64,000 nucleotides of DNA from an uncultured Lactobacillus sp. (GTDB taxonomy: Bacteria; Bacillota; Bacilli; Lactobacillales; Lactobacillaceae), in assembly GCA_947565635.1 (NCBI GenBank), contig CANOGU010000001.1, forward strand, positions 161,167 through 225,166, in the 5' to 3' direction. Shown piece by piece: positions 1-17,186 of this stretch (position 1 is the stretch's first letter; every line of letters begins with the position of its first letter). Under the pieces are notes generated by a model, which was not told the DNA's origin, did no database searches, and worked only from the letters and a program-made list of their open reading frames with translations. The position numbers and the translations under genes were made by a program.

Positions 1-1371
1 TACATTAATGTACTTACATGCTTCTGCTAAAATAGGTACAACATCAGCTCGTACACCAGCCATATGATGGATATATGGTCCATAAACATATTTTGCTTCA
101 AATCTATTCAAATCCTTAAATTGGAACCAGGCATAGGTCCCTTGTTCATATGGTCCATCACAAGTTTTAGCATTACCAATTAACATTGAATACTTACCGT
201 GATCACCATCAAATCGCACTAAGGTATAGGTTCCATCTTTAGCTTCAAAAGCAGCTGAGCCAGGATAGTCAAAAACAAAATGTGAAGGTGGTAAAATTGG
301 CCGATTTTTTGCTGTTTGAAAGGCGAATGTACCTAAGTGCTGTAATAATTCACCATTCTCATTTTCGGGATGGCGACAGTTAACATCCGCAAATATGGCT
401 CGTTCATCACCCAAAGTAGCACTTTCTGCTAATAATTCAGAAATAGCACCATTAATATCTGTCTCACAAGTTACGGGCATGCCTTCGGTTTGAAGTAGTG
501 CTTCAGAAGCATAAGGTAAAATACCGATTTCCCTTTGCAACTCAGTCCAACATTGAATTGTACCTGCATTGCAACCATATTCCTTCATCTTATCTTGCAT
601 AGCAAGTTTCAAAGCAGCTACTTTGGTGAAATCTTCATCTTTAATTTTAATATCAGCCCAATTACGATAGGTTTCTTTTGTTTCCTCAATTCTAGAATCC
701 TTTTTGTCAATTAACTCATACATATAAGAAGTTAACTCTCCTAAAGGAATTGGTGAAAGTTGAATACCAAACTTTTCTAATAACTCTCCTTCATTAACGA
801 TCACTGACCAAAAGTCAAAGGGACGAGTACCAATTTGTAAAATTCTTGTATTCTTAAAAGTTTTAACTACATTACATACTTTGATAAAATCAATCATCCC
901 TCTACTAAAAGCAGGATCGTCAATATCGCTATTTTTAATGTAGGTAAACGGGACATTAAAGTGACGTAAAACTTTTCCAATCGCAAATAATCCACACTGT
1001 GTATCCCTTCTACGTGAGCCGTCGGGAGCTGGAGCTTCATCTTTTGGACCCCAAAGTAATACCGGGACATTAAGTTTAGCAGCTAATCTTGCCACTTCAT
1101 ACTCAGTACCAAAATTCTCATTAGCAATGAACAACCCATCAATTTTTGCTTTCTTGAATTTCTCAGTAATCTTTTCTAATCCATCATCGTCGTACAGAAG
1201 TCCGTCATCATTTACTTCTTTAATGTCAACATAATTGACACCTAGTTCATCTAATTTTTCACGTGTTTTATTTGCAAATTCAATTGCTGCTGTTGCAGAA
1301 AAAATGTTTCTTCTTGTTGGTGCAAAGCCAATCTTAATTTGTTTTAAACTATCATAATTAGTCATACTCAT
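1..1371 (-). CDS. L-fucose isomerase-family sugar isomerase (3' end outside window)
   Basis: An open frame of 457 codons runs without a stop from an ATG at 1371 to the left edge, so the C-terminus is missing. A GAGAGG ribosome binding site lies 3 bases upstream; a second ATG two codons in (1365) is possible. Visible landmarks are GFAPTRRNIF near the N-terminus, LLWGPKDEAPAPDGSRRRDT near residue 100 and the following QCGLFA, which I associate with the L-fucose/L-arabinose isomerase fold. Such enzymes interconvert aldoses and ketoses using a divalent metal. Its neighbours (LacI regulator, split transketolase, FGGY kinase) suggest a pentose or deoxy-sugar route, possibly D-apiose to D-apulose; the substrate is inference. 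It has its own promoter and an operator-like palindrome just upstream. Confidence 0.8.
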   Translation of the reverse strand, partial: MSMTNYDSLKQIKIGFAPTRRNIFSATAAIEFANKTREKLDELGVNYVDIKEVNDDGLLYDDDGLEKITEKFKKAKIDGLFIANENFGTEYEVARLAAKLNVPVLLWGPKDEAPAPDGSRRRDTQCGLFAIGKVLRHFNVPFTYIKNSDIDDPAFSRGMIDFIKVCNVVKTFKNTRILQIGTRPFDFWSVIVNEGELLEKFGIQLSPIPLGELTSYMYELIDKKDSRIEETKETYRNWADIKIKDEDFTKVAALKLAMQDKMKEYGCNAGTIQCWTELQREIGILPYASEALLQTEGMPVTCETDINGAISELLAESATLGDERAIFADVNCRHPENENGELLQHLGTFAFQTAKNRPILPPSHFVFDYPGSAAFEAKDGTYTLVRFDGDHGKYSMLIGNAKTCDGPYEQGTYAWFQFKDLNRFEAKYVYGPYIHHMAGVRADVVPILAEACKYINV

Positions 1372-1386
1372 TACCTCTCAAATTTA

Positions 1387-1400
1387 TGTATTCGCTTACA
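1387..1400 (-). promoter_or_regulatory. LacI/CcpA-type operator before the isomerase
   Basis: Read on the minus strand, TGTAAGCGAATACA is an imperfect palindrome typical of LacI/GalR-family operators. It differs from the cre consensus at two positions. It sits over the predicted transcription start, just upstream of the ribosome binding site, and shares the half-site TGTAAGC and the end TACA/TTACA with the site at 2577-2590. It could bind the local regulator, CcpA, or both. Confidence 0.6.
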
Positions 1401-1406
1401 CAAATT

Positions 1407-1435
1407 ACAATAACTAGTATTTCCTAACACATCAA
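1407..1435 (-). promoter_or_regulatory. Promoter of the isomerase gene
   Basis: On the minus strand, a -35 like TTGATG (1430-1435) is followed after 17 bases by a -10 like TATTGT (1407-1412). Predicted transcription starts near 1400, directly in the operator at 1387-1400, so bound repressor would block it. Confidence 0.45.
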
Positions 1436-1465
1436 TAGTTAATTTACTTAATTAAACTTAACTAG

Positions 1466-2485
1466 CTATTTTAATGATTCTCTTACAATTAGTTTTGTCG
1501 AGATAAAGCTTTTCTGGCTAAGCCAATGCGTATTACTTACTTTTTCTTCTAGTTGATTAATTGCCTGTCTAACGATTTGTTCAATCGGAACGTGAATTGT
1601 TGTTAATTCCGGATTAATCATTGTATCCTCAAAAATATCATCAAAACCCATGATTGCCAATTGGTCAGGGATTTTAATACCAATTTTGGTTAATTCTTTA
1701 ACTAAACGTAGAGCCATATAATCATCTTCACAAAAAATTGCATGCGGATATTTTTTATTCGAATAGAAAAATTTAGGTAATGTTCCCCTCAATTCAACTG
1801 GATTTAAACTAAAGACAAAGTCTGGCGGAATTTCAAGATTTTTTTCTTTTAGAGCAGTTCTAAAACCCTCTCTTCTCTTCAAAAAATTAGTAATTATCCG
1901 ATTTGATGCAACATAACCAATCTGTGTGTAACCTTTTTCTATAATAAACTTTCCAGCATTATATCCTCCTTGAAAGTTATCAATTGAAACAAAGTCTGCA
2001 TCTACATCTTCAAAATAATTATCAATAAAGATAGCATTCTTAATTTTAGAATCTAAGAATAGAATTTGTTTTTTATTTAAATCTGTTGCTAGAACAATCG
2101 CCGCCTTACTTTTCTTTAGAGCAGTACTATTTTCGATGTCTTGTTTCAAATTTCGAATATTTAAAGTAACAATTTGAACTTGTCCACCAGATCCACCAAC
2201 ATTTTGAGAAAGATTAGATACTAATGAATCAAAAAACGGTAAACTTGCATAACTTCGATTCATTAACCCTGTAGTAGTCTTAATAATTACTAAGCTAATG
2301 CTAGTTAATTTTCTCACACCGCCCTTTTTATGCTTTCTTAGTGGTTCATAGCCCATTTCTTCTATTACTTTAAAAATATGCTTCCTCGTTTTTTCACTTA
2401 CTTCTGCTTTTCCATTTAGTGCAAAAGAGACAGCCGCTTTTGATACACCTGCTTTTTCTGCAATATCACTCATCTTTAATTTCAT
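1466..2485 (-). CDS. LacI/GalR-family transcriptional regulator
   Basis: This 339-aa protein has an N-terminal helix-turn-helix with the LacI signature (MSDIAEKAGVSKAAVSFALN, residues 5-24). A hinge helix and a periplasmic-binding-protein-like effector domain follow (FVSIDNFQGGYNAGKFI; IMGFDDIFEDTMINPELTTI near residue 290). The length is normal for the family. The ribosome binding site is weak (AGAAAG). It lies between the isomerase (same strand, 94 bases downstream) and the divergent transketolase-kinase genes, so it is probably their local repressor. The effector is unknown, likely a sugar or sugar phosphate of this pathway. Confidence 0.9.
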   Translation of the reverse strand: MKLKMSDIAEKAGVSKAAVSFALNGKAEVSEKTRKHIFKVIEEMGYEPLRKHKKGGVRKLTSISLVIIKTTTGLMNRSYASLPFFDSLVSNLSQNVGGSGGQVQIVTLNIRNLKQDIENSTALKKSKAAIVLATDLNKKQILFLDSKIKNAIFIDNYFEDVDADFVSIDNFQGGYNAGKFIIEKGYTQIGYVASNRIITNFLKRREGFRTALKEKNLEIPPDFVFSLNPVELRGTLPKFFYSNKKYPHAIFCEDDYMALRLVKELTKIGIKIPDQLAIMGFDDIFEDTMINPELTTIHVPIEQIVRQAINQLEEKVSNTHWLSQKSFISTKLIVRESLK

Positions 2486-2554
2486 TTTTTATTTCTTTCT
2501 TAAATAAATTTACTAATCTAAACTAAACTAATTAAATAATTAATCTATGTTAAC

Positions 2555-2590
2555 TATAAACATGATACCCTCATTTTGTAAGCATTTACA
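2555..2590 (+). promoter_or_regulatory. Promoter and operator/cre site of the transketolase-kinase operon
   Basis: A -10 like TATAAA (2555-2560) has a weak -35 (TTAAAT, 2532-2537) 17 bases upstream. The palindrome TGTAAGCATTTACA at 2577-2590 matches the catabolite-responsive element consensus at all but one position and shares TGTAAGC with the isomerase operator. Repression by CcpA and/or the adjacent LacI protein is inferred. Confidence 0.55.
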
Positions 2591-2618
2591 AGATAATAAA
2601 CAAATTGAGGTGTTTCTA

Positions 2619-3452
2619 ATGGATAGTTTAAGTTTAAAGAAAAAAGCCATTCAATTAAGGAAAAGAACATGGCAACTAATCTATCGTCATCATAACGGTC
2701 ACACAGGTTCAGACCTATCATGTACTGATATTTTAGTTGCTCTCTATTATGGCGTTCTCAACCAAACTCCCGATACTTTTGAAGACAAAAACTCTGATAC
2801 CTATATTCAAAGTAAAGGACATGCAGTAGAAATTTGGTACGAAATTCTTGCTGACAAAGGATATATTGATCAAGAAGATTTAGATAGACGGTACTCCACT
2901 TTTAATAGTCCCTACATTGGTCATCCAACTACTGATGTAAAAGGAATGGAATTTCATACAGGCTCTCTTGGTCATGGACTTGGTTTAGGCGTTGGCGTTG
3001 CTTTAGCTGCAAAAATGGATCATTTAAAGAAACGTACTTTTGTTTTAATGGGTGATGGTGAACAAGCAGAAGGATCTGTTTGGGAAGCTGCTATGGCAGC
3101 AAGTAACTACAGCTTGGACAATTTAACTGCAATTATTGACCACAATGACTTACAAATTACTGGTACAACGGACTCAGTTATGCGTTCTAATCCACTTAGT
3201 AATAAATATGAAGCATTTGGTTGGGATGCGATTGAAGTAAACGGTAACAATATTGATGCTTTAGTAGATGTTTTAAATAAGCCAAATAACACCGGAAAAC
3301 CAAGAGTTATTATTGCTAACACAGTTAAAGGTAAAGGAATTACCGTTGCAGAAAATCGGGCAGATTGGCATCACAAAATACCGACTAAAGAAGAGTATCA
3401 AGAAGGATTACAAGAATTAGATACACAGCTGGAGGGACTTAACAATGACTAA
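2619..3452 (+). CDS. Transketolase, N-terminal (TPP-binding) subunit
   Basis: This 277-aa protein corresponds to the first half of a full-length transketolase. It carries the diphosphate-binding motif starting GDGEQAEGSVWEAAMA (145-160) and ending at the Asn of IIDHNDLQ, plus the cofactor/substrate histidines in NGHTGSD (26-32), SKGHA and TGSLGHG. I chose the ATG at 2619 because GAGG lies 8 bases before it; an upstream in-frame ATG at 2547 overlaps the promoter and operator. The stop overlaps the start of the C-terminal subunit by 8 bases, so the two halves are translationally coupled. Split transketolases occur in specialised sugar and sulfosugar pathways. Here a role on a phosphorylated ketose made by the adjacent kinase is likely. 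Confidence 0.9.
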   Translation: MDSLSLKKKAIQLRKRTWQLIYRHHNGHTGSDLSCTDILVALYYGVLNQTPDTFEDKNSDTYIQSKGHAVEIWYEILADKGYIDQEDLDRRYSTFNSPYIGHPTTDVKGMEFHTGSLGHGLGLGVGVALAAKMDHLKKRTFVLMGDGEQAEGSVWEAAMAASNYSLDNLTAIIDHNDLQITGTTDSVMRSNPLSNKYEAFGWDAIEVNGNNIDALVDVLNKPNNTGKPRVIIANTVKGKGITVAENRADWHHKIPTKEEYQEGLQELDTQLEGLNND

Positions 3453-4386
3453 AGAAGAAAAACTATCTGCCAATACAGTTATCGCTGATACACTAGACAA
3501 AGCAACTAAAGTTGATCCTAATTTGTTAGTTGTAACCTGTGACTCACGTGGCTCTGCAGGGTTAGTTAATTTTACTAATGCTCATCCCGATCGCACTGTT
3601 GAAATGGGAATTGCTGAACAAAATGCAGTTACAGTTGCTGCAGGTATGGCTCATGCCGGAAAGCATCCCTTTGTTTTCTCACCAGCGGCTTTCCTAGCAA
3701 TGAGATCAATTGAACAAGTCAAAGTGGATGTTGCATTTAACCAAACTAATGTTAAATTAATTGGTATTTCTGGTGGCAACTCCTACACTTGGCTCGGAAC
3801 AACATATCATTCTTTAAATGATGTAGCTATTACTCGTGCTATTCCTAATCTTGAAGTCTATCAACCATGTGATCAATATCAGACTAGAGCACTTTTCAAT
3901 TATCTGCTTACCTCACCTCGTCCAGCTTACGTTCGGATCGGTAAAAGAAAACTTGATAATGTTTATCACGAAGATTTTAAGTTTGAACCTGGAAAAGCAA
4001 AAATTATTCGCAAAGGAAAAGATGTTTGTCTAATTTCTGTTGGTGAAATGCTTTATTTCACTCTCCAAGCTGCTGAAAAATTAGCAAAAAATGGTATTGA
4101 TGCTGAAGTTGTTGATTTAGCATCAATTAAACCTTTGGATGCTGAAATGCTTGATAAACTAGCACAGGAATTTAATCAGATAGTTACTGTTGAAGAACAT
4201 GATCTAATCAATGGAATCGGTAGTGCTGTAGCAGTTGAAGTAGCTAAATTTGGACATGCTAAATTAACAATTTTAGGATTTCCTGATGAACCAGCTATTC
4301 AAGGAACACAAGATGAGGTCTTCCACTATTATGGCTTGGATAGTGCAGGTATTGAAAAAGCAGTTGAAGACCTCCTCACGCATTGA
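3445..4386 (+). CDS. Transketolase, C-terminal subunit
   Basis: This 313-aa protein holds the pyrimidine-binding domain with the catalytic glutamate in GIAEQNAV (E58), followed by the C-terminal transketolase domain (VVDLASIKPLDAEML; VTVEEHDLINGIGSAVA). A GGAGGG site precedes ATG 3445. It would form a heteromeric transketolase with the preceding subunit. The TGA stop overlaps the GAGG ribosome binding site of the kinase gene, so all three genes form one operon. Apulose-4-phosphate transketolase (AptA/AptB) is the characterised split enzyme I think fits best. The sulfoquinovose transketolase and a generic pentose-phosphate role are alternatives. Confidence 0.9.
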   Translation: MTKEEKLSANTVIADTLDKATKVDPNLLVVTCDSRGSAGLVNFTNAHPDRTVEMGIAEQNAVTVAAGMAHAGKHPFVFSPAAFLAMRSIEQVKVDVAFNQTNVKLIGISGGNSYTWLGTTYHSLNDVAITRAIPNLEVYQPCDQYQTRALFNYLLTSPRPAYVRIGKRKLDNVYHEDFKFEPGKAKIIRKGKDVCLISVGEMLYFTLQAAEKLAKNGIDAEVVDLASIKPLDAEMLDKLAQEFNQIVTVEEHDLINGIGSAVAVEVAKFGHAKLTILGFPDEPAIQGTQDEVFHYYGLDSAGIEKAVEDLLTH

Positions 4387-4396
4387 GGCATTTCTT

Positions 4397-5848
4397 ATGA
4401 CTGAAAAATATATTTTAGCAATTGATCAAAGCACCCAAGGAACTAAGGTACTTCTAATCAATCATCAGAATCAAATTTTCTTCAAGGCTTCCCTTTCCCA
4501 CCAACAGCTCATTAATGAAAATGGCTGGGTGAGTCATAATTTAAATGAAATAAAAAATAATCTAAAACAGCTATTTAAGCAGATTCTTGAAAAAGTTGAT
4601 TCTAGACAACTTGAAGCCGTCGCTATTACCAACCAACGTGAATCGGCAGCTGCCTGGTCTCGAAGAACTGGTGAACCGCTTTGCTATACTATTGTTTGGC
4701 AAGATAATCGCTCAGAACAATTAATCAATCAAATTACATATCCAGAATTAGCTAGAAAAGTAAAAAACAAAACTGGTTTAGCTCTTTCTCCATATTTTAC
4801 TGGAGCCAAATGGGGTTGGATGCTTTTAAATGAACCCAGAGTGATTCAAGCACATGCTAACAATGACCTCTGCTTAGGAACAATAGACTCTTGGCTAGTT
4901 TATCAACTCACTAATGGCGAATCTTTTAAGACTGAAGTTTCTAATGCTTGTCGAACTGAGCTAATGAATATAAAAACTGGAACATGGGATCAGGATTTAG
5001 GTGAAATTTTTGGTATTGATCTCAATGATCTTCCTAAAATTGTTGATTCAAATGCTAATTTTGGTGAAACTAATTTATTTGGTCTCATTCCTCATAAAAT
5101 TCCTATTCTTAGCGTTTTAGGTGATTCTCAAGCTGCCTTATTTGCTCATGGGTGTTTTAATCCTGGTGACTTTAAAGTTACGTTTGGAACTGGTTCTTCT
5201 GTGATGTTAAATATAGGTAATAATTTACCAAAAAATATTAATAATCAGCTTAATACATCTCTTGCCTGGTCAATTAATGGTAAAAAATCTTACGTTCTTG
5301 AAGGAAATATTAATTATGCAGGAGCTTGCGTTACATGGTTAAAAGACAAGCTACATTTAATTCACGATCCGTCTGATACTACTATGCTGGCCCTAACCGC
5401 TAATCCAAATGATCATACTATTTTAATTCCGGCTTTTGCTGGACTTGGCGCTCCTTATTGGCTCCCTAATATGAAAGCTGCATTTGTTAATATGACAGCT
5501 ACCACTGGTAAAAAAGAATTAGTACGTGCCACTCTAAATTCATTAGTTTATCAAATCAATGATATTCTACAGGCCTTTCATCACTTTTCTTCTCAAGTGA
5601 ACAGTGAAATTCATGCTGATGGTGGAATGATACAAAATAAATATTTAATGCAATATTTAAGTAATATCACTCAAAAAAATGTAAAGATTGCTGAAGTCGC
5701 TGAGTTAAGTGCTCTGGGAACTGCGATGAATTCAATGCAACAATTTGATGGGATGCATTATTCTAAAACTTATATTCCTCGAATGGACAAACATGCAGCA
5801 AATAAGTATTCAAGTGAATGGTCTTCTTGGATAAAAAAATTATCATAA
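4397..5848 (+). CDS. FGGY-family carbohydrate kinase
   Basis: This 483-aa kinase begins with the ATPase-fold phosphate motif AIDQSTQGTK. It contains GDSQAALFAHG and FGTGSSVM (phosphate 2 region), GLGAPYWLPNMKA, and a late HADGGMIQNKYLMQ adenosine motif, in the FGGY order. ATG 4397 is supported by GAGG 8 bases upstream; a longer frame starting at 4286 lies wholly inside the transketolase gene. The sequence feel is close to glycerol/xylulose kinases, but Gly-Gly motifs alone do not give specificity. In this operon it probably phosphorylates the ketose made by the isomerase before the transketolase acts. Confidence 0.9.
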   Translation: MTEKYILAIDQSTQGTKVLLINHQNQIFFKASLSHQQLINENGWVSHNLNEIKNNLKQLFKQILEKVDSRQLEAVAITNQRESAAAWSRRTGEPLCYTIVWQDNRSEQLINQITYPELARKVKNKTGLALSPYFTGAKWGWMLLNEPRVIQAHANNDLCLGTIDSWLVYQLTNGESFKTEVSNACRTELMNIKTGTWDQDLGEIFGIDLNDLPKIVDSNANFGETNLFGLIPHKIPILSVLGDSQAALFAHGCFNPGDFKVTFGTGSSVMLNIGNNLPKNINNQLNTSLAWSINGKKSYVLEGNINYAGACVTWLKDKLHLIHDPSDTTMLALTANPNDHTILIPAFAGLGAPYWLPNMKAAFVNMTATTGKKELVRATLNSLVYQINDILQAFHHFSSQVNSEIHADGGMIQNKYLMQYLSNITQKNVKIAEVAELSALGTAMNSMQQFDGMHYSKTYIPRMDKHAANKYSSEWSSWIKKLS

Positions 5849-5850
5849 TA

Positions 5851-5896
5851 AAAAACCTAGAACTTTCACATAATTGTGTCAGTACTAGGTTTTTTA
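5851..5896. terminator. Bidirectional terminator between kinase and pepO
   Basis: The 10-bp arms 5851-5860 and 5885-5894 (CTAGGTTTTT) pair perfectly, with a smaller CACA/TGTG stem inside. A-rich and T-rich flanks serve the convergent genes on both sides. Confidence 0.85.
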
Positions 5897-5899
5897 TTA

Positions 5900-7834
5900 T
5901 TACCAAATAGTAATTCTATCTTCAGGATCTAGCCACATTCCATCTTCTGGAGTTACATTATAAGCTTCGTAAAACTCATCTTGATTTTGAACAGGAATAT
6001 TAACTCTTGTTGGTTGCGGTGCATGTACGTCTGATTGAACTTCTGCTGTAATTGATTCTGGACGTTGTTTTTGCATCCAGCTCTTCGCATAAGTTTCAAA
6101 GAGATCTTTCATCTCCCCGCCTTCTGCTTTATTAGCAGCAATTGCACAAGAAAGACCACTTAAATCGGCAATGTTTTCAGAAACAACTTGCTTACCATTT
6201 AACTTAGCTGGTCCATACTGTAAGCCATCGAAAATATCGGCAACGGCCTTAGTACGTTTATTGAACTCAGCAAAGTCTTCTTTAGTCCACCAGTTCTTCA
6301 TATTACCCTTTTCATCAAACTGAGCTCCATTATTATCAAAAGCATGAGAAACTTCATGACCAATGGTTGCGCCGATTCCGCCATAGTTAGCTGCACGAGA
6401 TTGTTTTGCATCATAAAATGGCGCTTGCAAAATTCCAGCTGGGAAAGTTAAATCATTCTTTTGTGGGTCATAGCAAGCATTGTTTAGATTACCGGGCATT
6501 GCCCAAACGCTTCGATCAGGAACTTGATTTAGCTTTTGCAAGTTGTCTTTAATCTTTTCTTGATTAATAAGAGCTTGATTCTCATATAGACTCTTATTTA
6601 GATCAACTACTAGTCGGTCAAAAACGGCCTGATTCTTTTCTGGATAACCAATTTTGAGTTTTAAGGCTTGCAATTTAACAATAGCTTGTTTCTTAGTTGA
6701 TTCGGAAAGCCAGTCATTATCTTGAATTCTTTCTTCATAGACCTTCAACATATTCTTAATCATGCTAATTACATCATTTTTAGCATCATCGCCAAAATAA
6801 GCTTTACCGTAATAAATCCCAACAACTTCATCAAAAGCCGCATTTGCTAAACGATATGCATGCTTATCTTGTGCTGGCATTTCAGGCACCCCATAAACAG
6901 CTTGTCTAAATGGAAAAGCTGCTTCTCTAAAGTCTTGAGATAAGTAATTAGCTCCCCCATTAATAAACTTAACAATCATCCAGCTCTTGATTTCGTCAAA
7001 TTCACTATTATTTAAAAATTCATTGATATGATCAAAATAACGTGGCTCTGCTTCAATTACTTGATCAGGTAATTCAGGTAAAAGCTGTTTTAAGAAAGCA
7101 TTGATGTCGAAATTTTCAAATTTAGCTTCAAAATCTGCCAATTTAACTGGATTATAGACAGCTGCATAGTCAGCCCATTCTTCAGTCGACTTTAAAACTT
7201 TGGCAAGTTTTTTATCAAATTCAATACCCTTACTTGCCCAAGTCTTTGCTTGTTCTTCCTCTACTCCAGCCATTACAAGTAACTTAACTGTTTGCTTTTC
7301 CAAAGTAGAAAGCAATTTTTCAGCATCATCACTTTGATATGCAGTAGTATCTGGCAAAAATGTACCTGGTCCTTCTGCATATAAGGCATTATGATCAGTA
7401 TCCTTCATATCTTCCATTACAAAAATATTGAATGGTAAGTCATATCCTTTTGCAAACAAGTCAGCAGCTTGTTTATTAAATTCTTCAAAACTACTCAAAG
7501 AAGTTAATTTTTCTAAATCAGCTTTGATTGGCTCTGCCTGTTCTTTATTTCTTTTATCAAAATCAATTGCTAATTTATAAAGATTAATTGCTTTTGCAAA
7601 ATTAGGTATAGTAGGAATCTTCTTTTTCCCGTCAGCAAAATCCTTCATCAATTGATCTTCAATCCGCATATCTAAAATCAAGTTAATTCCGGTTGAAGTT
7701 CTGTCAGCTGGAATTTTTGCTTTTGAAAGCCATTCTGAGTTAACTGCCAAGTAAAGATTATCTTGTGGTCTAGTATTAATATCAGGCTTAGTTAAATCAC
7801 CTGCACCACCGCGAACGCTAAAGTATTTTCTCAT
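5900..7834 (-). CDS. pepO: Neutral endopeptidase PepO (M13 metallopeptidase)
   Basis: This 644-aa protein is of normal PepO size. It has the zinc motif HEVSH in GATIGHEVSHAFDNNG, the third zinc ligand region ENIADLSGLSCA, and the NAFY-like substrate region NLNNACYDPQKNDLTFPAG. There is no signal peptide or N-terminal membrane anchor, so it is the cytosolic lactic-acid-bacterial form that trims casein-derived oligopeptides. GGAAGG precedes ATG 7834. It is a monocistronic gene bounded by terminators on both sides. Confidence 0.93.
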   Translation of the reverse strand: MRKYFSVRGGAGDLTKPDINTRPQDNLYLAVNSEWLSKAKIPADRTSTGINLILDMRIEDQLMKDFADGKKKIPTIPNFAKAINLYKLAIDFDKRNKEQAEPIKADLEKLTSLSSFEEFNKQAADLFAKGYDLPFNIFVMEDMKDTDHNALYAEGPGTFLPDTTAYQSDDAEKLLSTLEKQTVKLLVMAGVEEEQAKTWASKGIEFDKKLAKVLKSTEEWADYAAVYNPVKLADFEAKFENFDINAFLKQLLPELPDQVIEAEPRYFDHINEFLNNSEFDEIKSWMIVKFINGGANYLSQDFREAAFPFRQAVYGVPEMPAQDKHAYRLANAAFDEVVGIYYGKAYFGDDAKNDVISMIKNMLKVYEERIQDNDWLSESTKKQAIVKLQALKLKIGYPEKNQAVFDRLVVDLNKSLYENQALINQEKIKDNLQKLNQVPDRSVWAMPGNLNNACYDPQKNDLTFPAGILQAPFYDAKQSRAANYGGIGATIGHEVSHAFDNNGAQFDEKGNMKNWWTKEDFAEFNKRTKAVADIFDGLQYGPAKLNGKQVVSENIADLSGLSCAIAANKAEGGEMKDLFETYAKSWMQKQRPESITAEVQSDVHAPQPTRVNIPVQNQDEFYEAYNVTPEDGMWLDPEDRITIW

Positions 7835-7907
7835 TTAATTACCTTCCATTTAATCGTAATATTAATTAAATGATATCATGATTAAATTAAATTTAAAATA
7901 TCGTCCT

Positions 7908-7947
7908 AAAATAAACCGTACGTATCTCTCCGTACGGTTTATTTTTT
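7908..7947. terminator. Terminator of the ABC exporter operon
   Basis: The arms AATAAACCGTACG (about 7909-7922) and CGTACGGTTTATT (7931-7943) form a long perfect stem. T-runs on both sides make it suitable for the minus-strand permease gene ending at 7946. Confidence 0.85.
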
Positions 7948-10516
7948 AATCTACTGATTTCAATGCTTCTAGCATATTAACTTCTTTAATCTTACGATTT
8001 ACGAAAATTGCCATAATACCTGTAATGACTAAGGGAATTAAAGCTGACAATAAATAATTACTAAACAAAATTCCAGGTCTAAACATTGCATTTAGGGGAG
8101 CTAAATTGTCAATAATAAAGCCGTGTAGCCAATTACCAACTAAAAATCCAATTAAAATACCAAAAATTGATAAAATAATCGTCTCTCGATAAATATATAA
8201 GCTGGCCTCATTATTGTAAAAACCTAATACTTTTAAGGTTGCAATTTCTCTCATTCGCTCTTCTAAATTGGTTGTCGTTAAAGTAAAAATCACCACCACT
8301 GCTAATAGTGCAGCTAGCCCAATCAATAGAAATATTACTTTATTCATACTTTGGATCAAACTATCGATAATTTGTTGATTATTAGTATTTAAATTAATTG
8401 CACTAACTGCTCCAGTTTTCATCAAAGAATTCGCAAAGGAATTAGTTTGTTTTTTATTATTTAACTCAATTAATTGGGCATTTGAATTTACTTTTTTATT
8501 AAAGTACTTTTGATAAACATTCGAATTCATTAGGACATAGTGTCCCATATACATTTCACAGATATTACTAATAGGTAATTCTACTTTTTTGCCATTAGTA
8601 GTTACTAAACTTAACTCATCCCCAATACTTAAATTCAGTAACTTAGCCAATTTTTCTGAAATAACTATTCCCCGACTATTTAAGTTGATTTTTTGACCAG
8701 AGGATCTATTTCTCAAACTAATATATTTGCTAATCTCACTACTCTTTTCTGGAACAATTATCGAAAGATCCTGATTAGTACCGGCAATTTTTTTCGAGAC
8801 ATTTTCAAAATATACCGGCAAATATTTATTTACCTGACTAGAGGAAAGCTTTTGATTTAATTTAGTGCTTTGTTCGCTAGACAGAGAATTTTTATCAATC
8901 GCAATTAGATCATACTTAATAATCTCACTGTATTGTTTTTGTCCAATACGCGCTAGTGAATCACGAATCCCAGATCCCATCATTAATAGGCCAGTGCATC
9001 CCGCAATACCTAGAATAGTCATAATCATTTTTACTTTATAGCGAAAAATATTTCTCAAAGTAACTTTATAATTAAAACTTAAATGTTGCCAAAAAGGTTT
9101 AATTTTTTCTAGTAAAATCCGCGAACCATTTTTCGGCGGCTTAGGTAACAATAATTCACTTGTCTTTGCCCGCAAAACAATAAACAATTGAATTACCGCA
9201 GCCCCCGTAGTACAGAGAATAGAAATTAAGAAGGTTAAGAATAAGTATTTCCATGAAAAACCGCTCTGAAAATTTGTTAATGTCAGGTTTGCTGTATAGG
9301 CATTAAAAATTATTCGTGGCAGAATCCAGTACCCACCTATTGCTCCAATGAATACACCTGTTAAAGCAGCAGTTAAGCTGTAGATAACAAATTTTAGACT
9401 TGTATCTAATTTACTGTAACCCAAGGCTCTTAAGACACCAATATTTTGTCGTTCTTCATCAATAAAACGAGTCATCGTTGAAAAACTCACTAAAGCTGCT
9501 ACTGCAAATAGAAAGACTGGAAATATATTAGTGATTAATTCAATTTTTTCTGAATTAGACTGATAAGTATCGTATCCTGAATCATTTTTACGATCATTAA
9601 CATAATATGAAATGCTGCCTAACTGCTTAATTTCTTGCTCCTGTTCATTCAGTTTCTTTTGCTGCTTTTCTAATTTTTCTTTTTCCTTAGTTATCTCTAA
9701 GCCATTATTTTCAGCTAACTGAATCTGCTTTTTAGCCTGCTTAATTTGTTTCTGGGCGTCCTTAAAATTATTATCAACTTCTGTTTTTTTCAACTTACTA
9801 TTCTGCGCCAAAGAATTAGTAAGTCTTTCTTTTTTATTATCGATAAATTTTTGATAAGTACTAGAATACGGATCTAGCTTTTTAGTTTTATTGAATCGAA
9901 TTCGGGCAATACTATAACTTTGAGCCTTAAAGGCACTTTTCTTAACTATAGCAACTCCAGAAAGTTGACCAGTTCCAACATTAGTCTGCCCAAGATTACT
10001 TTTATCGGTATATTCACTTGGCCGTATAAAGCCAACAATTTTAAACCTACTATTTTTTAGATTAGAATGTTCATTTAAAGTAATCCATTCCCCGATATGA
10101 TATTTATTTCTAAGTAAATAACTAAGGACAATTTGATTATCTTTCTTCGGAAAGTTTCCACTAATTAATTGACTAGTAGAAATATTTTTACTCTCTGATA
10201 AAACACGCAGACTAGTCTTTGAATTATTGATAGTTGTATCCTGTAAATATCCAAAGTCAATAGTAGCTTTTTTTGCCTGGTTCTTAATAGTTTGTGTATC
10301 GTTTTTATCTAACCCATAGTTTGAGCTAACTGTTAAATCTGCTAAATTTACATCTTGATAATAAGTCTGAGCAGTATTTCTCATATCTGGACCAGCCATT
10401 TTTAGTCCAATAAAAGCAAAAGCACTAACTGCCATTAGCAGTAGAATTCCGATGAAGCGGCCCCATGAATGATTAAGCGAGCTGAGAGCATCCTTCCATA
10501 AAATTCTTCTGTTCAT
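7946..10516 (-). CDS. FtsX/MacB-like ABC exporter permease with extracytoplasmic coiled coil
   Basis: This is a large permease of about 856 aa. It has a membrane segment near residues 18-38, a long extracytoplasmic region, and a charged coiled coil (around residues 245-300, rich in K, E and Q). A block of three membrane helices follows, then a second FtsX unit (another single helix, extracytoplasmic domain and three helices near the C-terminus). I prefer ATG 10516, preceded by AGGTGA; an in-frame GTG at 10525 also exists. The stop of the ATPase gene is immediately upstream. The substrate is unknown; export of a lipid, peptide or drug, or envelope sensing, are all possible for this architecture. 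Confidence 0.85.
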   Translation of the reverse strand: MNRRILWKDALSSLNHSWGRFIGILLLMAVSAFAFIGLKMAGPDMRNTAQTYYQDVNLADLTVSSNYGLDKNDTQTIKNQAKKATIDFGYLQDTTINNSKTSLRVLSESKNISTSQLISGNFPKKDNQIVLSYLLRNKYHIGEWITLNEHSNLKNSRFKIVGFIRPSEYTDKSNLGQTNVGTGQLSGVAIVKKSAFKAQSYSIARIRFNKTKKLDPYSSTYQKFIDNKKERLTNSLAQNSKLKKTEVDNNFKDAQKQIKQAKKQIQLAENNGLEITKEKEKLEKQQKKLNEQEQEIKQLGSISYYVNDRKNDSGYDTYQSNSEKIELITNIFPVFLFAVAALVSFSTMTRFIDEERQNIGVLRALGYSKLDTSLKFVIYSLTAALTGVFIGAIGGYWILPRIIFNAYTANLTLTNFQSGFSWKYLFLTFLISILCTTGAAVIQLFIVLRAKTSELLLPKPPKNGSRILLEKIKPFWQHLSFNYKVTLRNIFRYKVKMIMTILGIAGCTGLLMMGSGIRDSLARIGQKQYSEIIKYDLIAIDKNSLSSEQSTKLNQKLSSSQVNKYLPVYFENVSKKIAGTNQDLSIIVPEKSSEISKYISLRNRSSGQKINLNSRGIVISEKLAKLLNLSIGDELSLVTTNGKKVELPISNICEMYMGHYVLMNSNVYQKYFNKKVNSNAQLIELNNKKQTNSFANSLMKTGAVSAINLNTNNQQIIDSLIQSMNKVIFLLIGLAALLAVVVIFTLTTTNLEERMREIATLKVLGFYNNEASLYIYRETIILSIFGILIGFLVGNWLHGFIIDNLAPLNAMFRPGILFSNYLLSALIPLVITGIMAIFVNRKIKEVNMLEALKSVD

Positions 10517-10525
10517 CTCACTCAC

Positions 10526-11227
10526 CTACCATTCAATTTGGGCAATATCTTGCGGAGAAGAATTATTTTCAATTTGCTTTACTTTTCCATCTTGAATCCT
10601 AATTACTTTATCAGCAATTGGAGCTAAAGCTGCATTATGAGTAACAATAACCACAGTAGAATTTTTCTTTAAACTTCGATCTTGTAAAATCTTCAGTACT
10701 TTTTTACCGGTCTGATAGTCTAAAGCCCCCGTTGGTTCATCGCAAAGTAATAGCGATGGATTTTTAGCAATGGCACGGGCTATTGCTACTCTTTGCTGCT
10801 CACCACCAGATAATTGGGACGGAAAATTGTTAATCCGCTTTTCAAGTCCCACTTCTTTCAAAGCACCTTCGGCATCAATTGGATTAGTAACCAATTCATT
10901 TGCAAGTTCAACATTTTCTTTCACTGTTAAGTTAGGAATTAAGTTATAAAATTGAAAGACAAATCCAATTTCATTTCTACGATACTTAGTTAATTCCTTA
11001 GCCGAATATTTAGCAATGTTATTACCATTAATAATAACTTCACCTTCAGTAACGTTTTCCATTCCGCCTAAGATATTTAATAATGTTGATTTCCCTGCTC
11101 CGGATGAACCTAAAATAATTACTAGCTCACCTTGCTTAATATCAAAACTAATATTCTTATTTGCCCAGACGACTGTACTACCTGAACCATATTTTTTCGA
11201 GCAATTCTTCAATTCAATAAAAGCCAT
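10526..11227 (-). CDS. ABC transporter ATP-binding protein (LolD/MacB type)
   Basis: This 233-aa ATPase has Walker [10 protein letters not shown], signature [14 protein letters not shown], Walker [13 protein letters not shown] and a switch histidine in VIVTHN. The Thr-Gly-Ala-Leu-Asp after Walker B is typical of the MacB/LolD subfamily that partners FtsX-like permeases. It is the first gene of a two-gene operon with the permease. GGGGAT lies ahead of ATG 11227. No sensor kinase or regulator is adjacent, unlike bacitracin-type modules. Confidence 0.92.
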
Positions 11228-11294
11228 TTTTTCATCCCCTATGTTTAATCTCTTCTAAGTATATTTTATGAAAAATTGACTATTTATATTAATA

Positions 11295-11330
11295 AAAAGC
11301 ACCTTCTTCAATGAAAAAAGGTGCTTTTAA
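11295..11330. terminator. Terminator of alkD
   Basis: AAAAGCACCTT (11295-11305) pairs with AAGGTGCTTTT (11318-11328). The T-run on the minus strand follows the alkD stop by about 15 bases. Confidence 0.8.
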
Positions 11331-11342
11331 TATAAAAAATTA

Positions 11343-12011
11343 TTATAGATATTTGCTTCCCTCTTTAATCGAAAGAGGTGCCATATCAGAAACATGGTTT
11401 TCAATAAATTCTCTTACCCACTCAGGATTAGTCTTAGAATAATCACGTAATGCCCAACCAATTGCCTTATTAATAAAAAATTCCGAACTATTTAAGTTAT
11501 TTTCTAGAATCTTTTCTAATAATTCAATATTCATCTTATCTTTACGTAAAAGTTGGTGCTCTATTGCTACCCTTCTTACCCAAAAATCATTATCTTTTGA
11601 CCAGGTTAGCATTAAGTCATTTACTTTTTCATCCCTTAAGCCGATTTTACCAATTGGTTTTATCAAACTATCAATTGTATCCCACCATTGCTTTGATTTT
11701 ATATAATTAAAAATCTGATCAATATCTTCAAAGGTTAAATACTTTTCTAATGAAATTAAATAGTCACAAACAAAATATTGGGCCTCTCGATGCGAATCAG
11801 ACCAAGCTTGGTCAAGAAGCTTCCAATCAATTTTTTTATTTTTCTTCTCTGCTTTGATTAGATCATGGTAACTCTTGCGCCTTTCTGGCGATTTTAAACC
11901 GTAAAATTTAAATTTATTTCGTAAATACTTTTCCATTTGTTTTGCTAAATCTGGATTACTGTTTTCAATTAAATTTTGTTTTAATTCTTGATACTTATCT
12001 ATTTCTTTCAC
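11343..12011 (-). CDS. DNA alkylation repair protein, AlkD-like
   Basis: A 222-aa all-helical HEAT-like repeat protein with the AlkD landmarks YGLKSPERRK, SDSHREAQYFVCDYL, WWDTIDSLI, WVRRVAIEHQL and FINKAIGWALRDYSKTNP. The family excises N3/N7-alkylated bases. A longer frame reaches 12068 but overlaps the divergent glycosyltransferase start. I chose GTG 12011 because AAGGA lies 7 bases upstream and the protein then has normal length. The intergenic space to the divergent gene is about 55 bases. Confidence 0.87.
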   Translation of the reverse strand: MKEIDKYQELKQNLIENSNPDLAKQMEKYLRNKFKFYGLKSPERRKSYHDLIKAEKKNKKIDWKLLDQAWSDSHREAQYFVCDYLISLEKYLTFEDIDQIFNYIKSKQWWDTIDSLIKPIGKIGLRDEKVNDLMLTWSKDNDFWVRRVAIEHQLLRKDKMNIELLEKILENNLNSSEFFINKAIGWALRDYSKTNPEWVREFIENHVSDMAPLSIKEGSKYL

Positions 12012-12066
12012 TTCAGTTTCCTTACTTGTTAAAATACATGTAGTAATTACTAGAGGGAGAATAATC

Positions 12067-13191
12067 ATGAAAATTTTAATTGTTATCGATGATTATTTCA
12101 ATAAAAGCAATGGCATGTCAATCTCAACGCAGCGCTTTGTTCGCGAATTTAAAAAAATGGATCAAGATGTTCGTATCCTTTCTTCCATTGCAGGCGGAGA
12201 ACCAGATTATCCTCTTCCAATAATGACCATCCCAGTTTTTAAAAATATTATTGCCAAAGAAGGTTTTCATTTTGCTAAACCTAAAAAAGAAATAATTAAA
12301 GAAGCTATTAGATGGGCAGATTTAGTCCACTTGGAAGACCCTTTCCCGGTTTGCTGGACTGCGGCTAAAATTGCCAAACAAATGAGAAAGCCAATTACAG
12401 GTACTTTTCATCTTTATCCTGAAAATCTGACTGCTTCAGTTCCAATTCTAGACCATGCTAGCATCAACTCTGCTTTTATGAGATTATTTCGTGATACTAC
12501 TTTTAATTACTGTAGCTATTTACAATGTCCAACTTTGAAAGTTGAACAGCGTTTAAAAAAATATAACTTCAAATCCAAGTTAATAGTTATTTCTAATGGC
12601 ATTAGTGACTATTATTTACAGAGTAATCAACGAACAACAACGACTGATCCCTTTACAATACTTTCAATCGGCCGTTTTTCAAATGAAAAGGATCAAAAGA
12701 CCTTAATTAAAGCTATCGGACGTAGTAAATACAAAGATAGAATCAAATTAATTTTAGCTGGGAAAGGGCCATTAAAGAATGAATATATCTCCCTTTGTCA
12801 ACGACTAAAGATTAATGCTCAGCTTGACTTTTATTCTAGAAATGACTTAAAACAGATCATGGATCAATCCAATATTGTTGTTCATTGTGCTAACGTGGAA
12901 GTTGAAGGGATGGCTTGCATGGAAGCTTTTGCGACTGGGTGTGTACCCATAATTGCCCAAAGTCCTCTCTCTTCTACCAGTTCATATGCTTTAAGTCCTA
13001 ACAATCTTTTTCCAGCTGGTAGCAGCGAAATTTTAGCTCAAAGAATTGATTATTGGATTAATCATCCTAAAGATTTAAAAATGATGAGTGCAAATTACCA
13101 AAATTATGCTAAATCTCTTACAGTTCAATTTTCTGCTAAAAAGCTCCTAACAATGATGAAAAACGCTCAAAAAAATTATCTTTCAAACTAA
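12067..13191 (+). CDS. GT4-family glycosyltransferase
   Basis: This 374-aa protein has a Rossmann N-domain (MKILIVIDDYFNKSNGMSIS) and the GT-B C-domain signature LSIGRFSNEKDQKTLIKAI. The ends of the nucleotide-sugar site are EVEGMACMEAFATGCVPII, with the family E-x7-E spacing. It has no signal peptide or membrane helix. GAGGGAG precedes the ATG. Related lactobacillus enzymes glycosylate diacylglycerol or envelope polymers, but nothing here identifies the acceptor. It stands alone, divergent from alkD and upstream of ppc. Confidence 0.85.
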   Translation: MKILIVIDDYFNKSNGMSISTQRFVREFKKMDQDVRILSSIAGGEPDYPLPIMTIPVFKNIIAKEGFHFAKPKKEIIKEAIRWADLVHLEDPFPVCWTAAKIAKQMRKPITGTFHLYPENLTASVPILDHASINSAFMRLFRDTTFNYCSYLQCPTLKVEQRLKKYNFKSKLIVISNGISDYYLQSNQRTTTTDPFTILSIGRFSNEKDQKTLIKAIGRSKYKDRIKLILAGKGPLKNEYISLCQRLKINAQLDFYSRNDLKQIMDQSNIVVHCANVEVEGMACMEAFATGCVPIIAQSPLSSTSSYALSPNNLFPAGSSEILAQRIDYWINHPKDLKMMSANYQNYAKSLTVQFSAKKLLTMMKNAQKNYLSN

Positions 13192-13258
13192 TATTCAAAC
13201 ATAAAAATATGTGTTATTCTTATGTTAAATCTTTCACAAAAAGGAGGAAACTTTTTTA

Positions 13259-15997
13259 ATGTCCATCAAGAAGTTAGAAAATAGCAGCGATCATGCAATG
13301 GTAGCTGAAGAAGTTAAAATTTTGACCAACTTACTTAACGAAAGTACACGTCAATTAAGTGGGGATGTGATTTTTAATAAAATTCAAGATTTAATTAAGA
13401 TCTCTGCCCAAAAAGACTACGATGCTCTTGAAAAGCAAATTGCTAGCCTTACTAATCAAGAAATGATTGTCGTTGCACGTTATTTTGCAACTTTACCTTT
13501 ATTAGTTAATATTTCTGAAGATGTAGAGTTAGCTAGTGAAGTTAACTTACTCAATAATACGGATCAAGACTATCTTGGTAAACTTGAAGATACGATTGAC
13601 TTAGTTTCTCAAAAAGAAAATGCCAGTGAAATTCTTAAGCATGTTAATGTAGTTCCAGTTTTAACTGCTCACCCTACTCAAGTTCAAAGAAAAACTGTCC
13701 TTGAATTAACCGATCAAATCCATGGTCTATTACGTAGTTACCGTGAAGTTAAAAACGGAACTATTAACCAAGCTGAATGGACTGAAAAACTCCGCGCTTA
13801 CATTGAGATTTTAATGCAAACCGATATTATTCGTAGCCACAAACTACAGGTTTCTAATGAAATTACAAACGTTTTAGCATACTATCCTAAGGCTTTGATT
13901 CCGGCTATTACTAAATTTACAGCTCGCTATCAAGAATTAGCTAAAAAACATAATTTAAATCTATCTGGTGCCACCCCAATTACCATGGGAATGTGGATCG
14001 GAGGCGATCGTGATGGAAATCCATACGTTACTGCCGAAACATTAAAGCTGAGTGCCACTTTGCAAAGCCAAGTAATTTTTGAATACTATATTAAACAGCT
14101 AAACAAGCTCTACCGCACGATCTCAATGTCTACTTCTTATATGAAGCCTTCATCCGCTGTTGAAAAATTATCAGAGCTCTCAAATGATGATTCCCCATTC
14201 AGAACAAATGAACCATATCGTCGGGCTTTCTACTATATTGAGAGCCGTTTACTTCATACTGAATATACTCTTTTAGGAACAGCTGATAAAAATAGTTTTG
14301 TTAAAAAACGCGATCTGGAAAACTTAGACAAAATTCCTGTTTACAAGAATCCACAAGATTTTAAAGCTGATTTAATTACAATTAAAGAATCGCTCGAAGA
14401 AGATCATGACCAAGCTGTAGTTAGAATTTTCTTTACTGAGCTATTAGAAGCAATTGATATCTTTGGTTTCCATTTGGCAACAATTGATATGCGTCAAGAT
14501 TCTAGTGTAAACGAAGCTTGTGTTGCTGAATTACTCAAGAGTGCCGGAATTTGTGATGATTATAGTGACTTACCAGAAAAAGATAAGGTTAAAGTTTTAC
14601 TTAATGAGTTAAACAATGATCCACGTAATCTTCACGCTAACAACAAGCCAAAATCTGAATTGCTCCAAAAGGAATTAAATATCTACAAGACTGCTCGTCA
14701 ACTCAAGGATTGTATTGGTGAAGATGTAATTAAACAACACATTATTTCTCATACTGAAAGTGTCTCTGATCTTCTTGAACAAGCAATCATGCTTAAAGAA
14801 TACGATCTTTTAAATAATCAAGGAGCTCGCATTCAAGTTGTACCATTATTTGAAACAGTCGAAGACTTAGAAAACTCTCGTGAAATTATGAAAGAATTTC
14901 TAAATCTTGACATTGTTAAAAGATGGCTTGCTTCTCAAAATAATTACCAAGAAATTATGCTGGGCTACTCTGACTCAAATAAAGATGGTGGCTACTTAGC
15001 TTCTTGCTGGAATCTTTATAAGGCTCAGAAAGACTTAACTGCAATGGGCAAGAAATTGGGTGTTAACATTACTTTCATGCACGGCCGTGGGGGAACTGTG
15101 GGTCGTGGTGGTGGTCCTTCTTATGAAGCTATTACTGCTCAACCTTTTGGCTCAATTAATGACCGGATTCGAATGACTGAACAAGGTGAAATCATTCAAA
15201 ACAAGTATGGTAATCAAGATACTGCTTACTACAATTTGGAAATGCTGGCCTCAGCTACTATCGACCGTATTGTTTCTAAACAAATTGTAAGTGAAGATGA
15301 TATTGGCGGATTCCGTTCCTCAATGGATGAAATTGTTTTAGACAGTAATAAAGTTTACCGTAAGCTTGTTTTTGAAACACCAGCTTTTCTTGACTACTTC
15401 TTGCAAGCTACACCAATTAAGCAAATTTCCAACTTAAATATTGGTTCTCGTCCAGCAGCAAGAAAGAAGATTACTGATTTTTCAGGCTTAAGAGCTATTC
15501 CTTGGGTATTTTCATGGTCACAAAGTCGAATTATGTTCCCTGGTTGGTATGGTGTTGGTTCTGCCTTCAAGCACTTCATTGATGCCAATCCTAATAACCT
15601 CCACACCTTACAAAAAATGTATCAAGGATGGCCTTTCTTCCACTCCCTACTTTCAAATGTTGACATGGTTCTTTCCAAATCCAACATGGATATTGCTAAA
15701 CAATATGCAGACCTCTGTGAAGATGAAGATACTAAAAAAGTCTTTGATACTATCTATCAAGAATGGAAACTTACTAAAGAAGTAATCCTTCAAATTGAAG
15801 GTAACAAAGAATTACTTGCAGATAACCCAAGTTTAAAGATGAGCTTAAATTACCGGATGCCATACTTCAATATTCTTAACTACATTCAAATTGAAATGAT
15901 TAAACGAGACCGCGTCGATGAGATTGCCGGCGTTTATGAAAGTATTTTACCGATTACCATTAATGGGGTAACCTCTGGCTTACGTAATTCGGGATAG
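13259..15997 (+). CDS. ppc: Phosphoenolpyruvate carboxylase
   Basis: This 912-aa enzyme forms oxaloacetate from PEP and bicarbonate. Both PROSITE-type signatures are visible: [14 protein letters not shown] with the catalytic His, and [14 protein letters not shown]. So are [11 protein letters not shown], the glycine-rich [12 protein letters not shown] loop, and a C-terminal Gly after RNS as in the family. AAAGGAGG precedes the ATG. In lactobacilli, which lack a full TCA cycle, it mainly supplies aspartate. It lies close to the pyr genes that use aspartate and bicarbonate. Confidence 0.97.
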
Positions 15998-16019
15998 TTT
16001 TAATTTTTAAGGACAAAAT

Positions 16020-16568
16020 ATGAAAAAAGCACTATTAATTATTGACTACACTAATGACTTCATTGCAGACAATGGTTCTCTTACCTGTGGAAAGCCAGCT
16101 CAAGCTTTAGAAGATTATTTAATCGAATTAGCAAATAAATTTTATGATAATGGAGATTATGTAATTTTTCCAACTGATGGACATACCGGTGATACATTTA
16201 GTCCAGAATATAAGCTCTTTCCACCACATAATATTGTTGGTACACCAGGACAAGAGTTACACGGTAAGTTAAAAGATTGGTATGAAGCGCATAAGTCTAG
16301 TGACCGAGTATATAAATTTAACAAAAATCGCTATTCTTCTTTCCAAAATACTAATCTTGATAACTACTTACGCGAACGTAAAATTAACGACCTATGGTTA
16401 ACGGGAGTATGTACAGACATTTGTGTTCTTCATACGGCTATGACTGCCTATAATTTAAACTATGATTTAACTATTCCAAGTAAAGGTGTTACTACCTTTA
16501 CTGAACATGGTCAAGAATGGGCCTTGGATCATTTTAAAAATGCCTTAGGCGCAAAAGTAATAGAATAA
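16020..16568 (+). CDS. pncA: Nicotinamidase (isochorismatase fold)
   Basis: This 182-aa cysteine hydrolase has the Asp of IIDYTNDF near the N-terminus, the metal-site FPTDGHTGDTF region, Lys in YKFNKNRYSSF, and the nucleophile Cys in LTGVCTDICVLHTA. This is the D-K-C triad of nicotinamidases. It deamidates nicotinamide to nicotinate for NAD salvage. It starts 22 bases after ppc and may be cotranscribed; a weak AAGGA precedes it. The pairing with ppc looks positional rather than functional. Confidence 0.88.
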   Translation: MKKALLIIDYTNDFIADNGSLTCGKPAQALEDYLIELANKFYDNGDYVIFPTDGHTGDTFSPEYKLFPPHNIVGTPGQELHGKLKDWYEAHKSSDRVYKFNKNRYSSFQNTNLDNYLRERKINDLWLTGVCTDICVLHTAMTAYNLNYDLTIPSKGVTTFTEHGQEWALDHFKNALGAKVIE

Positions 16569-16574
16569 TAGAGC

Positions 16575-16619
16575 AAAAAAAACTGTATCATCTGATTTTT
16601 CAGAATGATACAGTTTTTT

Positions 16620-16620
<1 letters not shown>
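16575..16620. terminator. Bidirectional terminator between pncA and the pyr operon end
   Basis: AAAAAAAACTGTATCA (16575-16590) pairs with TGATACAGTTTTTTT (16606-16620), with an inner TCTG/CAGA stem. It serves the convergent pncA and second pyrR genes and its last base touches the pyrR stop. Confidence 0.9.
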
Positions 16621-17168
<548 letters not shown>

Positions 17169-17186
17169 TCAAACCGGGATTATTTA

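Follow-up and report, generated by a model that had tools for sequence, protein, structure and literature searches.

The divergent locus and the genes to its left

The stretch analysed here, referred to as the window, comprises 64,000 nucleotides of an uncultured Lactobacillus sp. (assembly GCA_947565635.1, contig CANOGU010000001.1, here C1, positions 161,167 to 225,166). It lies at the end of a 225 kb contig, and the genome is 79.6% complete. Positions 1 to 5848 carry a divergent gene set that we read as a candidate regulon for the use of D-apiose. The original prediction had described a fucose-isomerase-family gene, a LacI regulator gene, overlapping genes for the two parts of a transketolase (TkN and TkC) and an FGGY kinase gene. 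The list of open reading frames (ORFs) of the window bore out all five genes and their strands:

1..1371 (-): predicted D-apiose isomerase, fucose/arabinose/sulfoquinovose-isomerase-like; runs 96 bases beyond the left edge (full gene C1:161071-162537, 488 aa)
1387..1400 (strand not given): putative LacI-type operator TGTATTCGCTTACA, upstream of the isomerase gene
1466..2485 (-): LacI-family regulator of the divergon (Pfam LacI above cut-off)
2577..2590 (strand not given): putative LacI-type operator TGTAAGCATTTACA, upstream of the transketolase genes
2619..3452 (+): TkN, thiamine diphosphate-binding N subunit of a split transketolase, predicted apulose-4-phosphate transketolase (Transketolase_N above Pfam cut-off)
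3445..4386 (+): TkC, pyrimidine-binding and C-terminal subunit of the split transketolase (Transket_pyr and Transketolase_C above Pfam cut-off)
4397..5848 (+): FGGY kinase with AplK-like pocket letters, predicted apulose kinase (FGGY_N/C above Pfam cut-off)

The reading frames of TkN and TkC overlap by 8 nt. TkN most likely starts at 2619 and not at the ORF-list start of 2547; a GAGGTG lies just 5' of 2619, where relatives also begin. The kinase start was set to 4397, the ORF-list start (4286) being too early.

A transporter or glycosidase gene had been suspected to the left of position 1. Both are present there, as a permease of the phosphotransferase system (PTS) and a glycosidase of the Apiosidase family:

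C1:159744-161093 (-): GH140-like apiosidase, 449 aa, PF13204
about C1:159674-159599 (-): site resembling a ribonucleic antiterminator (RAT) and terminator, 5' of the BglG/LicT gene
C1:158737-159579 (-): BglG/LicT antiterminator (domain search)
C1:156539-158731 (-): beta-glucoside PTS IIABC (domain search)
C1:155521-156477 (+): LacI2, a second LacI gene, divergent from the major facilitator superfamily (MFS) gene
C1:154128-155354 (-): MFS gene of a second divergon (LacI/MFS/DUF5060-apiosidase)
C1:152581-154113 (-): DUF5060-Apiosidase-DUF5605 protein of the second divergon

The Apiosidase-family gene overlaps the isomerase gene by 23 nt on the same strand. Its product scored 261 bits against PF13204 (cut-off 26.5, E 2e-77), a family wider than GH140, and about 37-48 bits only against solved relatives. 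In a weak HMMER alignment with Bacteroides BT_1012 (chain 3kzs, E 7e-10; counted by hand, offset 20), its D180, E271, W41, W132 and Y274 fall on Asp187, Glu284, Trp63, Trp149 and Tyr287. PMC4032388 proposes Asp187 and Glu284 of BT_1012 as catalytic and describes the other three as aromatic residues. Unlike BT_1012, the window-genome protein gave no match to the C-terminal domain PF12904 in the Pfam search, and no signal-peptide-like stretch was seen when its N-terminus was read by eye; the enzyme is therefore probably cytoplasmic. The DUF5060 protein has Glu at both catalytic places, as judged by motif.

The terminator hairpin before the antiterminator gene had a z-score of -5.4, and 0 of 200 shuffled sequences were as stable. 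The adjoining sequence resembles a RAT site; an Rfam search of the window-genome locus (L003) gave no match. Palindromes of the form TGTAN6TACA occur three times in L003, before the isomerase, transketolase and MFS genes (0.39 expected; 2 of 200 shuffles reach three). In the window alone there are also three (1.3 expected; 15 of 100 shuffles reach three), of which the one at 12511 lies outside the locus. Across 13 Lactobacillus loci, several of them close kin, we counted 30 putative sites, where base composition predicts about 9; L034 and L035 have none. The site TGTATTCGCTTACA also precedes the isomerase gene in L024, L025, L026 and L030 and, with one letter changed, in L032. The LacI repressor, whose gene separates the divergent arms, is probably the sensor of the sugar.

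In the window genome the MFS gene (L003 7629-8855) reads as two ORFs. It is a single ORF in the near-identical genome G059, from which a single substitution separates this 1.3-kb stretch. When a 24-kb piece of the window was compared with a plasmid collection, there was one near match, a Lactobacillus intestinalis record covering 11% of the query at 77% identity.

Kinase, transketolase and isomerase compared with known enzymes

The Apt pathway, as Carter and colleagues are said to have described it in 2018, converts apiose to apulose, then to apulose-4-phosphate and finally to dihydroxyacetone phosphate (DHAP) and xylulose-5-phosphate. According to PMC13001218, E. coli strains with an aptA/aptB/aplK cluster grow on D-apiose and lack apsI, having two oxidoreductase genes instead. 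Our aptA, aptB and aplK references were taken from E. coli SE15 by locus tags; growth was shown for other strains (PMC13001218).

The kinase was compared with AplK and with glycerol kinase (GlpK) at two pocket motifs. All 34 candidate rows (33 distinct) read D-S and GTGxS, like E. coli AplK, whereas 14 of 14 GlpK rows read D-Q and GTGxF; the window kinase has D-S and GTGSS. The two places correspond to Gln246 and Phe270 of GlpK, both replaced by Ser in the candidates. Against two GlpK models the window kinase scored 461 and 437 bits, under the curated cut-offs of 590 and 498, and E. coli AplK likewise stayed under the cut-off of 590 with 495 bits. The kinase tree had 59 rows, with RhaB and LyxK omitted as long branches, and GlpK formed one clade (support 100/100). 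A single apulose-kinase clade was not rejected by the approximately unbiased test (p 0.238). Two rows were dropped by length, L003, where the kinase is cut by the locus end, and L026; L032 and several others were not picked. In L026 (genome G021) the kinase gene is represented by two ORFs. The kinase sought in E. coli regions L150 and L151 was not found there.

Had the transketolase subunits been ordinary pentose-phosphate enzymes, they should have clustered with such enzymes, as the original prediction pointed out; instead, 26 of 26 control split transketolases grouped without them (TkC 100/100; TkN 96/89). In the unrooted TkC tree (68 rows) the 26 controls formed one group, Firmicute and spirochaete rows including the window a second (100/99), and enterobacterial AptB joined a Rhizobium protein in the third (97/72). 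The unrooted TkN tree, also of 68 rows, separated the controls from the rest. Without a root, the groups of the window, of AptB plus Rhizobium and of housekeeping enzymes meet at one fork. The window subunits lie outside the housekeeping group, and the trees give them no placement nearer to AptA/AptB. TkN is 45% identical to E. coli AptA over 268 columns and TkC 36% identical to E. coli AptB; by BLAST, TkC scored 207 bits with Rahnella AptB and 224 bits with the Rhizobium protein.

The controls were the best-scoring split-transketolase matches in a phylum sample, and the tree rows were selections from the loci. Of 29 controls, three (L121, L122 and L123) were reassigned to the Apt side once a quick tree had been seen, leaving 26; in L123 an isomerase and a kinase gene adjoin, while L121 and L122, both from genomes with PF13204, were moved on tree position alone. 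The TkC tree was built without a very long outgroup row, the long row L093_second and the near-copy L024.

Two further loci with split transketolases were seen. On a Rhizobium plasmid (L021) the transketolase genes stand with an FGGY kinase gene, an ATP-binding cassette (ABC) transporter, two dehydrogenase-type genes and tpiA, without an isomerase gene; its kinase has the AplK pocket letters, and its TkC is the nearest to that of the window among the non-Firmicute references. Locus L183 (G136, 4237-18503) has two split transketolase pairs and a GH140 gene with a PF12904 domain, again without an isomerase gene, and holds genes that we named by eye as four-carbon-acid kinase, PdxA-like and DHDPS (dihydrodipicolinate synthase)-like.

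The isomerase matched a sulfoquinovose isomerase (SftI) model over nearly its full length with 95.8 bits (cut-off 700), and Fucose_iso_C with 24.4 bits, under the cut-off of 29.3. Searching solved structures with the isomerase, as a sequence and as a profile, gave no match. Its predicted model had a mean pLDDT (predicted local distance difference test) of 85.3 and a pTM (predicted template modelling score) of 0.89; the probable fold family was assigned from sequence.

Distribution and related systems

Within the genus, a search for TkC with an E limit of 1e-50 detected it in 13 of 75 genomes. PF13204 occurs in 12 of the 75, all inside these 13 (Fisher p 5e-13, without correction for relatedness); the one genome lacking it, G040, is 69% complete, and two of the 12 (G017 and G064) have the DUF5060 type only. 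Ten of the 13 fetched Lactobacillus loci, one of them cut by a contig end, contain a GH140-type gene, and BglG plus PTS genes occur in eight, each time with a GH140-type gene. In the three loci without GH140, a PTS was not found within the fetched stretch. A ribose-type set (a ribokinase-like gene, an RbsD-size gene and an rbs-type ABC transporter) follows the isomerase gene in five of the 13 (L027, L031, L033, L034 and L035); the Pfam search covered three ribokinase-like genes (L027, L031 and L034) and one RbsD (L031). A GH78 rhamnosidase gene is present in L026 and L029 and a gene for a BD-FAE-like esterase in L026 and L028, neighbours that fit plant glycosides. Phosphoketolase is encoded in the window genome and in 72 of the 75 genus genomes. 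In L027 (6054-7211), a gene for an IS605 OrfB/Cas12f-like transposon protein lies between the LacI and isomerase genes.

Beyond the genus we inspected the loci of the best 80 of 577 relatives recovered among named genomes, with flanks as fetched and some contigs short. By title these were mostly Lachnospiraceae and other Clostridia, along with Selenomonadaceae, spirochaetes, one member of the Anaerolineaceae and Vagococcus. In 71 of the 80 loci the isomerase, TkN, TkC and kinase genes follow one another in this order on one strand, so the gene set did not come together by chance; three more have the kinase gene in first place, and a few carry ABC genes that separate TkC from the kinase gene. 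A kinase of the window type is encoded in 75 of the 80. The flanks contain an rbs-type ABC set in 21 loci, the DUF5060 type in 10 and GH140 in four. PF13204 was above cut-off in 33 of 50 isomerase-bearing genomes (50 of the 80) versus 8 of 149 genomes of the phylum sample, which includes the window genome; the two sets differ in make-up, and this ratio is only indicative. Within the phylum sample the isomerase is present in four genomes, again counting the window genome, and split-transketolase-like matches in 145.

With the enterobacterial Apt pathway (aptA, aptB, aplK, apsI) the window locus shares a two-subunit transketolase, an FGGY kinase with a D-S and GTGxS pocket, a fucose-isomerase-like gene and an adjoining regulator. 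In Rahnella and Klebsiella an ABC importer, TkN, TkC, isomerase and kinase are encoded together; their isomerase gene is presumed to be apsI, and the Klebsiella enzyme is a distant relative of the window-genome isomerase. The regulator differs, being a sugar-binding SorC-type protein in enterobacteria and LacI in the window, and so does uptake, by an rbs-type ABC importer in the former and by a PTS with a predicted intracellular apiosidase in the window genome. Because uptake varies in this way, and the rbs-type ABC set is found in only part of the 80 loci, we did not take it as defining the pathway. Further differences are the distant isomerase and a transketolase and kinase that the trees do not place with AptAB and AplK.

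A closer parallel is found in Listeria monocytogenes, where genes for LacI, isomerase, TkN, TkC, kinase, beta-glucoside PTS and a DUF4038 protein stand in a row (EL207_RS12260-12290). The proteins are 58% (isomerase), 56% (TkN), 53% (PTS), 51% (TkC), 37% (glycosidase) and 36% (kinase) identical to those of the window genome. In Listeria, however, the genes from isomerase to DUF4038 are all on one strand, and a BglG gene is not in the stretch; the kinase is annotated as a glycerol kinase. These genes are probably lmo1030-lmo1036, as matched by annotation. PMC8079631 and PMC2996996 name lmo1034 a glycerol kinase and lmo1035-1036 a PTS and a beta-glucosidase.

A glycan cluster of Lactobacillus jensenii (PMC10711310) is alike by description in that it has rhamnosidase, DUF4038, DUF5060, fucose isomerase, MFS and alpha/beta hydrolase genes. 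That paper reads it as a cluster for GH13/GH14-like glycan use, and its main text does not mention a transketolase or PTS. Among the papers listed from the open-access literature, none dealt with apiose use by Lactobacillus or Listeria or with a PTS-linked apiose route; most subscription papers lay outside this search, and Carter and colleagues may cover part.

A candidate route for apiose-bearing glycosides and its alternatives

Taken together, the Apiosidase-family neighbour, the co-occurrence with PF13204, the kinase pocket and the non-housekeeping transketolase support the apiose route of the original prediction as a gene-based reading. We put the probability that the locus is a regulon for the use of apiose-bearing plant glycosides at roughly three in four, and apiose itself is probably the sugar. 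From the gene set and order, the domain families, the catalytic residues (in a weak alignment) and the terminator hairpin, all read at sequence level, we infer the substrates, uptake and order of steps as follows. A beta-glucoside-type PTS under control of the BglG/LicT antiterminator would import and phosphorylate the glycoside, and uptake of an apiosyl-glucoside in this way is somewhat favoured. The phosphate would more likely be placed on the glucose part than on apiose, because a PTS that phosphorylated apiose itself would leave the kinase without a role. Inside the cell the GH140-like enzyme would release free D-apiose, which the fucose-isomerase-like enzyme may convert to D-apulose and the FGGY kinase to apulose-4-phosphate. 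The two-subunit transketolase would then transfer a two-carbon unit to glyceraldehyde-3-phosphate, yielding DHAP and xylulose-5-phosphate, and the latter could enter the phosphoketolase reaction. The remaining glucoside phosphate could be processed by other GH1 enzymes of the genome, which has three long matches on contig C8. The locus looks like a Gram-positive variant of the pathway known from plant-associated and gut bacteria, of which the front end of PTS, antiterminator and intracellular apiosidase is the variant part; Listeria shares the PTS and the glycosidase.

Several observations weigh against this reading. When the kinase tree was rooted on XylB-type rows, the Firmicute kinases joined GlpK (97/92), and AplK and the Rhizobium kinase fell outside; by BLAST the kinase (as its identical copy L024) scored 306 bits with GlpK and 276 with AplK. 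The window TkC scored 193 bits with E. coli AptB compared with 160-205 (median 180) with the 26 housekeeping controls, and TkN 236 bits with E. coli AptA compared with 158-234. The isomerase is only 26% identical to its enterobacterial counterpart in the Klebsiella apt cluster (469 columns, E 1e-38). In 45 of the 80 loci, some of them on short contigs, the flank as fetched contains neither apiosidase genes nor the rbs-type ABC set, and 17 of the 50 isomerase-bearing genomes lack PF13204 above cut-off. The specificity of the PTS is taken from its family only.

The true substrate of these enzymes might be a different sugar, for instance D-arabinose, D-ribose or another branched ketose, with the apiosidase-family gene a mere neighbour or active on another substrate. 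The breadth of the isomerase family, the trees, which leave the transketolase and kinase apart from AptAB and AplK, and the ribose-type set in the isomerase operon of five Lactobacillus loci would fit this. Use of another pentose was nevertheless rejected, and we consider it unlikely, on the AplK pocket letters, the presence of PF13204 in 12 of the 13 TkC genomes and the enterobacterial parallel; moreover, established pathways for arabinose or ribose need no dedicated transketolase pair. That a split pentose-phosphate transketolase and a glycerol kinase came to lie side by side by chance is highly improbable. Split-transketolase-like genes are nearly ubiquitous in the phylum sample, the window TkC is as similar to the controls as to AptB, and the Listeria kinase carries a glycerol kinase annotation, but the subunits have their own tree group, the kinase reaches neither GlpK cut-off and departs from GlpK at both pocket letters, as E. 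coli AplK does, and the genes are patchy in the genus; we rejected the housekeeping explanation on these grounds. The sulfoquinovose (sulfo-transketolase) pathway likewise combines an SftI-like isomerase with a split transketolase, and the isomerase matches the SftI model from nearly end to end. Its score is far under the cut-off, and the sulfoquinovose route is not known to include a sugar kinase, whereas a kinase accompanies nearly all of the 80 loci. A sulfoquinovosidase was not found among the neighbours scanned for domains, the rest of the genome not having been searched for one. On the SftI score and the presence of the kinase we rejected this pathway, which is barely conceivable here.

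Within the preferred reading of an apiose regulon, a more detailed account can be given for lactobacilli and Listeria jointly, and we offer it tentatively, as a proposal more likely to fail in some part than to hold throughout. An apiosyl-glucoside would be phosphorylated on glucose at import. Apiose would then be freed for an Apt-type route by an intracellular GH140 enzyme able to act on the phosphorylated form. The Firmicute transketolase pair and apulose kinase would have an origin separate from that of enterobacterial AptAB and AplK; the kinase would have emerged near glycerol kinase and undergone the same two changes in its pocket, so that the pathway would have been assembled more than once. 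The DUF5060-DUF4038-DUF5605 proteins may represent a second class of apioside hydrolases.

Apiose occurs in pectin rhamnogalacturonan II and in many flavonoid and aroma glycosides. The cluster defines genes on which apioside use in Lactobacillus can be tested, and it offers an alternative reading of the L. jensenii glycan-use cluster and of the Listeria genes annotated as glycerol kinase and beta-glucosidase. In the rows examined, two kinase pocket letters separate apulose-kinase candidates from glycerol kinases.

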